From: Rhodoferax sp. U2-2l
GTDB lineage: Bacteria > Pseudomonadota > Gammaproteobacteria > Burkholderiales > Burkholderiaceae_C
NCBI RefSeq assembly: GCF_020594515.1
Contig: NZ_JAJCTH010000001.1
Location: 248,001 to 312,000, forward strand
Length of the DNA stretch: 64,000 nucleotides
Direction: 5' to 3'
The stretch's first letter is position 1, and each line of letters starts with the position of its first letter. Made by a program: the position numbers and the translations under genes. The notes beneath the pieces are model-generated. The model was not told the DNA's origin and did no database searches. It worked only from the letters and a program-made list of their open reading frames with translations. Shown here in pieces: positions 24,863-27,905 of the stretch.

Positions 24863-27301
24863 ATGCACACCCCCGACCTGTTTGCACCGCCGCTGGATCA
24901 TGCCAAGCGCGTGGCCGAGCTGCGCCAAGCACTGCACCACCACGCCCATCTGTACCACGTGCTCGATGCGCCCAGCCTGCCGGATGCCGAATACGACCGC
25001 CTGTTCAAGGAACTGCAAGCGCTGGAAGCCGCGCACCCTGAGCTGATTACGCCCGATTCACCCACGCAGCGTGTGGGCGGGCGACCGCTGGACAAGTTTG
25101 CCCCGGTGCGCCACGCGATGCCCATGCTCAGCATCCGCACCGAAACCGACACCACCCCCGCCGGTGCGGAAAATTTTGACGCCCGCATCCGCCGCGAACT
25201 GGGTCTGACCGACACCGACCCGCCAGTGCCCTACGTGGCCGAGCCCAAGTTTGACGGCCTGGCCATGAGCCTGCGTTACGAGCACGGTGTGCTGGTGCAG
25301 GCCGCTACGCGTGGGGACGGTGAAACCGGCGAGGAAGTCACGCAAAACATCCGCACCATTGGCCAGATTCCGCTGCGGCTGCCCGACGCGGCACCCGCCG
25401 TGCTGGAAGTGCGCGGCGAGGTCTACATGCGCCGCGACGACTTTGAAACCTTGAACGAGCGCCAACGTCAAAAAATTGCGGCAGGCGTCAAAGGCGAGAA
25501 AACCTTTGTCAACCCGCGCAACGCCGCCGCCGGTGCGGTGCGCCAGCTGGACCCGGCCATTGCCGCCCAGCGGCCGCTGAGCTTTTTTGCCTATGGCCTG
25601 GGTGAAGTCACGCCCGCCGAGTCTGGCGGACCGACATTTGCCACCCACTTTGAGATGTTGCAAAACCTCAAATCATGGGGTTTTCCGGTCTCAGAACTTG
25701 TCAAGCAAGGGCAGGGTGCTTCTGAATTGGTCGCTTATTACAACGCCATTGGCACCCAGCGCGACAGCTTGGGTTTTGACATTGACGGCGTGGTCTACAA
25801 GGTGGACAGCCTGGCGCTGCAACGCCAACTGGGGTTTGTCACCCGCGAGCCGCGCTGGGCGGTGGCGCACAAGTTCCCGGCGCAAGAGATGCTGACCACC
25901 GTGCTGGCCATCGACGTGCAGGTGGGCCGCACCGGCAAGCTGACCCCGGTGGCCAAATTGGCACCGGTGTTTGTGGGCGGTGTCACCGTGACCAACGCCA
26001 CGCTGCACAACGAGGACGAAGCCCGCCGCAAGGACGTGCGCGTGGGCGACACGGTGATCGTGCGCCGTGCCGGCGATGTGATTCCCGAGGTGGTGAGCGT
26101 GGTGTTGCCGTCTGACGATGCCAGCTGCGGCTCACCAACTATTGCGGCGTCTGAACGAGGCGCGATGTTCACCATGCCCAAAACCTGCCCGGTGTGTGGC
26201 AGCGCAGCGGTGCGCGAGGAGGGTGAAGCCGACTACCGCTGCACTGGCGGGCTGTTTTGCAGCGCCCAAAGAACTCAAGCGCTTGCGCACTTTGCCAGTC
26301 GTCAGGCGATGGATTTGGATGGTTTTGGTGATGAATACATTGAAAGGTTTGCGCAGTTTGGCTGGCTGACCACAGTGGCTGACTTTTACCAGTTGAAGGA
26401 CAAACCGCTCGTTGGTTTTGTTATTCGCGAAGAGCCTTTTACATATAAAGATGGTGACACAAAGACCAAGTTGGTGCGGGTCCAGGAAGATTTGGCAGCC
26501 AAGTTAGTGGCTTCCGTAGAAGAGTCTCGTACCAGACCGCTTAGGCGAGTCATTTTCGGCTTGGGCATTCGACATGTGGGTGAAGCGACCGCGAAGGATT
26601 TGGCACGGTTTTTTGGATCTTTGACGGAGTTAGCGCAGGCGACCGCCGAGGTACTTTTGTTGATCGATAACCTCGGTGAGGTCACAGCCAAATCTCTCCT
26701 GAGTTTTTTTAGCCAAGAACATAACAAAGAGGTTCTCAGTGATCTTCTGCGAGAACTCAGCCCATTGCCACCAATGCAAACGGAGCGTGTAGTTTCGTTG
26801 TCTTTTTTGAAGCTGTTGAGTACATTGGCTATCAAGAAAGTCGGTACAAAATCCCAGAAGTTGGTTGTTGAAGCCTTCCCGACACCGCACGCACTGTTGG
26901 AAGCCGGTAAGAGAAATACCCTACAAAGTGGATCAGTTGAATCTCGAATTTTCGAGGTTTTATCCTCTGAGAACTGGCAGAAAGCTTTGGCGCAGACTGA
27001 CAGGCTGGGGATAAGTTGGTCCGATGATTCCGAGGTAGTTGACGGACATTCATCATTGCTTGCTGGAAAGACAATCGTTATTACCGGAACTTTGGATAAA
27101 GTTTCTCGCGATCGCGCAAAAGAGCTGGCTGAACTGGCTGGGGCAAAGACGGCAGGTTCTGTATCGAGAAAAACGGATTTGGTGGTTGCCGGACCAGGTG
27201 CTGGCAGCAAACTCGCTGATGCACAAAAATTCGGTATTGAAGTAATTGATGAAGCTGAGTACCTCAAGCGCCTTTCTTCCGCAGGAGTTTTCAATGATTG
27301 A
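24863..27301 (+). CDS. ligA: NAD-dependent DNA ligase with atypical long C-terminal half
   Basis: An 812-residue LigA, longer than the usual 670-700. The N-terminal adenylation domain is normal, with nucleophile Lys129 in AEPKFDGLA; the OB fold, the Cys4 zinc finger (CPVCGS..C..C near 435-460), HhH region and C-terminal BRCT ([17 protein letters not shown]) follow. Between the HhH region and BRCT are about 75 extra residues (near 635-710) that align loosely with the preceding HhH segment: LAIKKVG against LGIRHVG, then [11 protein letters not shown] against [11 protein letters not shown]. From about 26270 the DNA is visibly less GC-rich: 42% in 26401-26460 against 68% in 25201-25260. The 3' part may have been exchanged by recombination. 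The last 8 bases overlap the next gene. Confidence 0.9.
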
Positions 27302-27905
27302 GCAATATGCGGTTGCCATGGCAACAGACGCCAGGCTTCTAAAACGCGGAAGTGAGTCGTTGATTGGTATCGCGTCTGGTCTGATTGCGGACGGCGAGTT
27401 GAACAACAAGGAAATTCAATTTCTGTCCCTTTGGTTGTCAGAGAACCAAGCACTGGCCACAACATGGCCGGGAGAGGTGATCTACAAACGTGTCAGAGAG
27501 GTTCTTTCCGACGGCGTGATCACAGCAGAGGAACGGGATTATTTACAAAAGAGCCTCGCTGAACTTGTGGGAGGTGCGTTTTCTGACGACGGCGCCATTG
27601 CCTCGGGTGCAACTGATTTGCCTATTGATCAAAGTGCAGTTGTTCAAATTCCGAGTCTGGCTTTCTGTTTTACTGGTCAGTTCTTGTTTGGCACACGGAC
27701 CGCTTGTGAGCAAACCGTGGCACAGCGTGGTGGACGCATTTGTTCTGTCAGCAAGAAACTTGATTTTCTCGTTGTAGGCGAACTGTCTAGTCGGGATTGG
27801 AAGTACTCATCATTTGGTACCAAGATCGAGTCAGCGATGAAGCTCAAGCAAGATGGTGTACCGCTGGCTATCGTGACTGAGGCGCAATGGGTTCGGGCGC
27901 TGTAG
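26270..27905 (+). other. Low-GC segment spanning ligA 3' half and BRCT gene
   Basis: Base composition drops abruptly inside ligA near 26270 and stays low through the BRCT gene to about 27905, while zipA, the 5' half of ligA and the following toxin-antitoxin pair are GC-rich. The reading frame is unbroken across the junction. The most direct reading is replacement of the ligA 3' end by horizontally acquired DNA that also brought the BRCT gene. Confidence 0.6.
27294..27905 (+). CDS. TerB-like/BRCT domain protein coupled to ligA
   Basis: A 203-residue protein. The N-terminal half (about 10-95) contains [20 protein letters not shown] and [14 protein letters not shown], a repeat pattern like TerB-type helical domains; the C-terminal half (about 120-200) is a BRCT domain, with [19 protein letters not shown] and an [18 protein letters not shown] core. 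BRCT domains bind phosphopeptides or DNA ends. AGGAG precedes the ATG, which lies inside the ligA end (8-base overlap), implying co-translation. A role with the ligase is inferred from coupling; the function is unknown. Confidence 0.75.

Follow-up and report, generated by a model that had tools for sequence, protein, structure and literature searches.

A ligA gene with a foreign 3' half and an overlapping BRCT partner gene in Rhodoferax sp. U2-2l, and similar pairs in other bacteria

In bacteria the replicative ligase is LigA, generally regarded as a housekeeping enzyme passed on by inheritance. Here we report that ligA of Rhodoferax sp. U2-2l is a chimera whose 3' half is of foreign origin and is overlapped by a gene for a BRCT protein (the partner), and that ligA is linked to such a partner in nine further genomes. 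The window, by which we mean the whole stretch of 64 kb that was analyzed, comprises positions 248001-312000 of a 387-kb contig in a genome of 4.2 Mb and 51 contigs (99.99% complete, 0.07% contaminated). On its + strand lie, in order, smc, a ZipA-domain gene and ligA (24863-27301). Of the neighboring genes, zipA is named by its domain match; smc, def, glnD and purL are what we take the others to be. The features at the locus are the following.

24863..26272, + strand: native 5' part of ligA, residues 1-470 (nucleotidyltransferase, OB, zinc finger), from domain matches, identity to congeners and its nesting within the genus in the N-half tree
26273..27298, + strand: exchanged foreign 3' half of ligA, residues 471-812 (HhH, extra HhH block, BRCT), from the identity drop, composition, the C-half tree and a structure model
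26783..27022, + strand: extra block, residues ~641-720, second copy of the HhH module, from a profile-profile match and helices in the model
27047..27253, + strand: BRCT domain of LigA, residues 729-797 (Pfam PF00533, E 5.9e-12)
27283..27287, + strand: Shine-Dalgarno-like AGGAG within the ligA 3' end, 6 nucleotides (nt) ahead of the partner ATG, read directly from the sequence
27294..27905, + strand: partner gene, 203 residues, helical N-terminal domain and BRCT, family phrog_3989, overlapping the ligA stop by 8 nt, from profile, model and fold search
28056..28310, + strand: Phd/YefM-type antitoxin gene within the inserted segment (Pfam PF02604, E 1.1e-11)
28310..28726, + strand: PIN-domain toxin gene, overlapping the antitoxin stop by 1 base (Pfam PF01850, E 3.2e-10)
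28746..29348, + strand: def (presumably peptide deformylase), native, at the right junction of the inserted segment; alignments of seven relatives start exactly at 28746

The chimeric ligase gene and its borders

The ligA frame runs uninterrupted through 812 residues, as a first-pass annotation made from the letters alone had stated. Its product is one chain with adenylation, OB, C4 zinc finger, HhH and BRCT domains, which matches the NAD-dependent ligase model over its full length and all domains (NCBIfam PRK07956, 835.8 bits against a cut-off of 369). The KFDG motif and the C4 zinc finger are visible in the translation, and the enzyme looks intact. The same annotation had reported that base composition falls sharply near 26270 and stays low through the next gene, and a windowed scan agrees: G+C content drops from ~65% to 45-53% at ~26290 and recovers near ~28050. 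At third codon positions (GC3) it is 0.76 in ligA codons 1-470, 0.465 in codons 471-812 and 0.50 in the partner gene, while five nearby genes (smc, zipA, def, glnD, purL) have 0.79-0.81.

Protein similarity breaks at the same place. Identity to LigA of the same genus is 61-83% in residues 401-470, 27-40% in residues 471-500 and 17-30% in residues 501-560; further on, just 8 of the 90 residues 631-720 align in each of the 20 congeners with sequence reaching there. The long C-half was found in 0 of 88 other congeners searched (72 gave some match and 16 none, and not all can be judged). In maximum-likelihood trees of 55 rows each, the N-half is nested within its genus as sister to L002 (support 98/91), whereas a branch of the C-half tree separates 18 grouped congeners from the window (99/94; 100% of 200 bootstrap trees), which sits outside the genus on a branch of 1.93. 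The exact placement of the C-half is uncertain because of long branches; its position outside the genus is the firm point. The window LigA therefore differs from ordinary LigA in that its two halves have different ancestries. Vertical inheritance would have left the same long LigA, with one phylogeny for both halves, in close relatives, which is not what we observe, and the earlier suggestion that foreign DNA replaced the C-terminal half is upheld. The composition break is the sole point in favor of an assembly artefact or contamination; given the long contig, the quality of the assembly, the open frame with its visible motifs and the similar pattern in nine other assemblies, we regard this explanation as extremely remote.

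The exchanged 342 residues show roughly 30-40% identity. The protein had also been described as longer than usual, but the enlarged form occurs elsewhere: 39 of 398 other genomes of the order match the long tail at E 1e-32 or better, all 39 over nearly its whole length, as do 9 of 368 other genomes of the class (7 of the 9 over nearly the whole tail). A double-HhH tail is found in other beta- and gammaproteobacteria. Judged by sequence, the enlarged LigA belongs to an existing long LigA type, and the enlargement alone is thus not special. That the extra residues ahead of the BRCT domain are a second copy of the HhH module, as had been proposed, is borne out by profile-profile comparison over the long-LigA family (hhalign probability 97.6%, E 1.7e-11, 83 columns); a pairwise duplication test on the window sequence alone is not significant, 813 of 2000 shuffles scoring as high. 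An AlphaFold2 model of residues 471-812 (14 sequences; mean predicted local distance difference test (pLDDT) 87.0) shows the extra block with helices and, near residues 520-539, a beta hairpin. No donor of the window tail was found among 399 genomes of the order or 369 of the class, where the long tails reach at most 40% and 39% identity, respectively.

At the left junction, residues 460-469 are the best conserved of the nearby stretches, with a mean identity of 93% to 29 other LigA of relatives; the mean falls to 60% in 470-479, 45% in 480-489 and 9% in 490-499. An imperfect palindrome (26267-26294; 18-nt arms, 83% complementary) lies exactly at this junction. Homology to relatives returns at 28746, the start codon of def, where alignments to seven loci begin. 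From these two borders the foreign segment is 26273-28745, or 2473 nt.

In 18 of the 20 congeners in which both genes were seen, def starts 1-14 nt before the end of ligA; in the other two, L004 and L012 (G033, G014), 851 and 672 nt separate ligA from def. The gene lying between them in L004 appears GNAT-like by hand reading. The ligA/def border may thus be an insertion hot spot in this genus. Because the GC3 of the two toxin-antitoxin genes (0.62-0.70) lies between that of the host and that of the foreign segment, the Phd/PIN pair (28056-28726) is perhaps a separate, later insertion. With 29 relatives as queries, no credible ligA remnant was found 3' of the partner (one weak 25% match, E 0.023). 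In a Pfam domain search none of the segment's genes proved to be an integrase or other mobile-element gene, and the window, the one locus examined in this way, has no flanking direct repeat of at least 14 nt and no att-like repeat. With neither an integrase nor flanking att repeats found, the segment does not qualify as a site-specific recombinase element at a gene 3' end.

Both the junction that follows the most conserved nearby stretch and the absence, in these searches, of a mobile-element gene and of direct repeats would suit a neutral mosaic, in which DNA taken up by transformation or conjugation recombined homologously at the zinc-finger region, which is conserved, and carried the BRCT gene along merely as the donor's neighbor. 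The distribution of similar pairs, described below, speaks against it.

The partner gene and its relatives in phages

The partner begins with an ATG at 27294 and overlaps the ligA stop by 8 nt, so that its AGGAG lies inside ligA; the reported overlap is therefore real, and the partner is translationally coupled to ligA. In the model the 203-residue protein consists of a helical domain joined by a low-confidence linker to a BRCT domain (mean pLDDT 90.1, predicted template modeling score 0.56). In 45 sequences T127 and G128 are invariant and K177 nearly so; we take these T-G and K positions to be the phosphate pocket of an RFC1-type BRCT. The first reading had named the protein TerB-like plus BRCT. 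Its second part stands, with a Pfam BRCT score of 19.6 bits, just below the cut-off of 21.3, and with a LigA model and the RFC1 BRCT as the sole solved folds retrieved at E 0.001 or better. The TerB label found no confirmation in any library and amounts to a resemblance: Pfam gives no TerB match at E up to 0.1 and reports BRCT as the sole domain, leaving the N-terminal part as a confidently predicted helical bundle without a Pfam match. Fusions of BRCT and of TerB to WYL domains are mentioned in PMC4012209. The source genome carries a single copy of the partner. A pattern scan with the single protein recovered no relative, and profile A1 is too diverse for such a scan.

The partner belongs to phrog_3989, whose profile it matches at E 3.6e-67 over both helical domain and BRCT (residues 18-203 on profile positions 106-292 of 296). 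This is a protein family of temperate phages, including Vibrio and Pseudomonas phages. Its member in Vibrio phage K139, orf2, is likewise built of a helical part followed by a BRCT domain, and is longer than the window partner, with the helical part repeated (by eye). They differ in setting, since orf2 lies in a lysogeny operon beside the repressor (order cI, orf2, glo, int) whereas the window partner is chromosomal and translationally coupled to ligA. The homologue in phage phi1 also adjoins the repressor, and that in PG1 is one annotated gene away. The words "BRCT" and "ligase" are absent from the text of the K139 family paper (PMC4870250).

Among neighbors of viral partner copies, 26 of 108 match the repressor family phrog_4, and further repressor families come next; in bacterial genomes 4 of 132 neighbors match phrog_4 and 5 of 132 match phrog_8. 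Neighbors were chosen by a longest-open-reading-frame rule (60-600 residues), and the counts omit near-duplicate viral loci and five neighbors at ligA-linked loci. Three viral loci (L170-L172) do carry ligA and were matched solely through the ligase's own BRCT, in a single open frame, and a fourth, L117, was matched through a second BRCT of the partner itself. Among 19 viral loci with ligA, 12 were examined and showed no separate partner. The family's helical domain also occurs elsewhere, in a 350-residue protein that we would call exonuclease-like (L323, 5188-6240) and at the C-terminal end of an 868-residue protein that we would call helicase-like (L324, 6001-8607; GC3 0.37).

Recurrence of the pair and traces of exchange

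Pairs of ligA and a BRCT gene are found in nine other genomes, as the first-pass annotation had suggested they might be. A one-BRCT-pattern scan of 84,980 species genomes gave 83 relatives, and among the best 80 of these 83 ligA is directly adjacent in four, with spacings between a 4-nt overlap and a 110-nt gap: Opitutaceae MAG-7 (L218), an Opitutae metagenome-assembled genome (MAG; L238), Bosea sp. OK403 (L231) and a Kordiimonadaceae MAG (L225). If one ligA in 4 Mb is assumed, the chance of at least 4 of 80 lying within 200 bp of ligA is ~2.5e-9. In Verrucomicrobiae (160 genomes) 15 were profile-positive, some over the BRCT or the helical part alone, and ligA lay in the flanks of 6 (5 of 14 without the seed genome). 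The five new loci, L310-L314, were confirmed on wider stretches; partner and ligA are 0 nt apart in L311, 10 in L312, 17 in L313 and 9 (convergent) in L314, and one gene intervenes in L310. Among 289 alphaproteobacteria there were 3 matches, with the seed, Bosea, alone linked. The window's own order (399 genomes) gave 14 matches including the window, and no ligA is near the partner in the 10 of 13 others that were checked on wider DNA, the remaining 3 being weak matches outside that check.

Besides the window, then, Bosea, a Kordiimonadaceae and seven Verrucomicrobiota carry a member of phrog_3989 or another BRCT gene at the 3' end of ligA. Across all ten, six partners begin with the helical domain; L312 and L313 have a different N-terminal domain, L314 has an exonuclease and L311 has none. 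The ligA frame of L312 (2561-5584) is itself unusual, with ~1007 residues and a long insert, coiled-coil-looking by eye, between HhH and BRCT.

We compared composition within these ligA genes as the GC3 of codons 31-430 minus that of codons 500 to the end, the linked genes having been picked by neighborhood and not by composition. This drop is 0.29 in the window, 0.29 in Bosea, 0.12 in the Kordiimonadaceae, 0.30 and 0.40 in the two Opitutae (0.40 becomes 0.32 if an N-terminal extension is counted) and 0.21, 0.34, 0.21, 0.29 and 0.20 in L310-L314 (corrected starts). In 78 unlinked ligA genes from five sets the mean is near 0 and the maximum 0.109, which all ten linked genes exceed (0.12-0.40); the genomes are mutually related, and an exchangeability statistic is indicative at best. 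No partner gene was found in the 81 control loci from which these genes come, where two weak matches fall in the ligases' own C-terminal match region. The break lies near the zinc-finger/HhH border or further downstream.

Of 40 congeners of Bosea sp. OK403 searched, 11 were compared; against the three nearest, LigA identity is 94-99% to residue 400, 76% in 401-500, 34-58% in 501-740 and 70-72% in 741-811, and over all 11 it is 28-60% in 501-740. Beyond its partner, 50 residues are 100% identical to the LigA end of congeners and 70% to Bosea's own LigA. In the Opitutaceae case the N-half is sister to its relative (100/95), while the C-half groups with the other Opitutae case (100/99). The partners of both end in a LigA-type BRCT that is closer to the LigA of other genomes than to their own: 86% to a relative's LigA against 58% own in L218, and 80-82% to LigA of other genomes against 53% own in L238. 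On these identities we consider three displaced native LigA ends firm, one in Bosea and two fused to the partner in L218 and L238. In L312, 36 residues resembling a LigA end (58-61%) directly after the partner are possibly a short one; none was seen in the window or L313, nor outside the ligA region in L225 and L314. Two Opitutaceae relatives, L270 and L271 (G903, G901), are 80-82% identical to the first part of the L218 tail (residues 451-500) and have no partner in the flank, a state that is perhaps an earlier stage of the exchange.

The partner tree was scored with nine linked rows (L314 omitted) against 64 viral rows, leaving 71 rows of neither group uncounted. The linked rows need 6 changes, at least 3 of them forced by well-supported (starred) branches. 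The window copy falls in a set of 27 rows that includes 11 viral contigs (97/90), and the Bosea copy in an alphaproteobacterial set of 15 (99/98). We rejected the idea of one cassette travelling between lineages: the enlarged tails of the window, Bosea and Opitutae are different inserts, and the partners are scattered on the tree.

Ten genomes from two phyla hold similar pairs, their partners come from across the family tree, and every linked ligA has a composition break exceeding the largest of the 78 unlinked genes, which makes the neutral mosaic improbable. An alternative is an insertion hot spot, where prophages or mobile elements enter at the end of ligA and restore it with their own copy, the BRCT gene being leftover prophage cargo. 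Genes of the partner family are common in prophages, next to the repressor, native ends are displaced in at least three loci, and the ligA/def border holds toxin-antitoxin genes in the window and 851 and 672 nt in L004 and L012, all of which this alternative would explain. Gene ends restored at integrase sites are, however, near-identical, unlike 342 residues exchanged at such low identity; the segment has no integrase gene and the window no att-like repeat, and what remains at these loci is time and again a BRCT gene. We consider such insertion unlikely.

A possible functional module at the ligase 3' end

Because similar arrangements occur in several distant lineages, we read the exchanged tail and the BRCT partner as rather probably one recurrent functional module embedded in ligA, and its capture as likely independent and repeated. 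The foreign segment has replaced the native 3' end of ligA, supplying the ligase with a different DNA-binding half (two HhH modules and a BRCT) and bringing a coupled BRCT partner of a prophage gene family, with the toxin-antitoxin pair filling the remainder. The host catalytic core would work with the foreign tail. The partner has a BRCT resembling the LigA/RFC1 type and may bind either the tail or the nicked or 5'-phosphate DNA on which the ligase acts. Selection would then keep tail and partner together through this shared substrate, via BRCT and HhH. That the two proteins act together at nicks is a prediction which we hold to be reasonably probable.

Known systems offer partial precedents. 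The two-subunit NAD-dependent ligase of phage PR1 (9hu3/9i5i; compared by database titles) likewise joins a ligase to a separate BRCT-bearing chain, but the PR1 ligase is itself divided whereas the window LigA is complete and so is not a two-subunit ligase of this kind. XRCC1 and DNA ligase III of eukaryotes, both retrieved as weak-E fold matches, pair a ligase BRCT with a partner BRCT and are a comparison for how the pair might work; that system is eukaryotic, with a different ligase class, and heterodimerization of the window pair is hypothetical. PDC-S48, a PADLOC candidate defence family, is an exonuclease-BRCT protein that the exonuclease-BRCT partner of L314 matches at E 1.6e-24; the window partner is without exonuclease, matches it weakly (E 7.5e-5, positions 278-384 of 411) and is not a member. 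The ligase, the phage family and the double-HhH tail are thus of known kinds. Their linked exchange is the part for which we recognized no published description in the open literature, subscription literature lying outside the search. The putative undescribed ligase accessory system, as first proposed, draws its support from the recurrence in nine further genomes.

Several observations weigh against this reading. None of 80 viral partner loci has a separate ligA in its flanks, and the Kordiimonadaceae LigA is as similar to its relatives as they are to one another, so that there the partner lies beside an ordinary LigA; the partner therefore does not require an exchanged tail. The exchanged tails, with extensions that differ between the window, Bosea and Opitutae, are not one travelling cassette. 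Four of the ten partners are BRCT genes without the helical domain, and in three linked genomes the partner is convergent and not co-transcribed with ligA. The ten are not all independent finds, since Bosea and one Opitutaceae centered the later surveys, and the three forced changes on the partner tree may equal one gain and two losses. The viral partner L117 (3977-4864, 296 residues) ends in a second LigA-like BRCT with no ligA nearby, and tandem BRCT partners hence also exist independently. Together with L310 and L311, whose partner tails do not discriminate (68% to own LigA against 52-56% to others in L310; 60% against 60-64% in L311), it implies that some fused tails may have an origin other than a displaced native end.

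The pair could also be addictive, the BRCT protein inhibiting ordinary LigA as a poison and the exchanged tail serving as the resistant allele. Tail and partner are linked, the tails differ strongly from native ones, and an essential gene would be an ideal target. Phage copies without their own ligA, and the ordinary LigA beside the Kordiimonadaceae partner, make strong toxicity to native LigA unlikely, and we consider this explanation quite improbable.

Returning to a module in which tail and partner cooperate, defence against phages or rival prophages would be a speculative and tentative purpose. The link comes from the weak PDC-S48 match and the prophage context, and also from L310, where a 159-residue gene without a Pfam match and a DUF3800 gene lie near the ligA-linked partner (5045-7177), the latter matching the PADLOC candidate PDC-M04A (E 2.2e-10); such evidence counts against a confident assignment. 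In a broader and more doubtful version, the ligA 3' half would be the exchange site of a two-part system for defence or prophage competition, in which alternative tails, together with a partner that bears a BRCT (phrog_3989 or an analogue, in one case with an exonuclease), sense or control nicked foreign DNA. It would have been put together time and again in Pseudomonadota and Verrucomicrobiota, often out of prophage genes, and its anchoring in an essential gene would make it hard to lose.

Repeated replacement of the DNA-binding half of a ligase, together with a BRCT neighbor from a prophage family, suggests that phage and host fight over the ligase or use it as a tool in their conflict. The pairing would open a first route to what phrog_3989, annotated as of unknown function, does in temperate phages of Vibrio and Pseudomonas, and raises a clean question for the bench: does the partner act through LigA?

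Elsewhere in the window, a second stretch of low G+C content (12001-17000; 53-55%) contains a cbb3-type oxidase operon, a Crp-type regulator and a radical-SAM HemN-like gene, and may have been acquired or may merely be differently biased.

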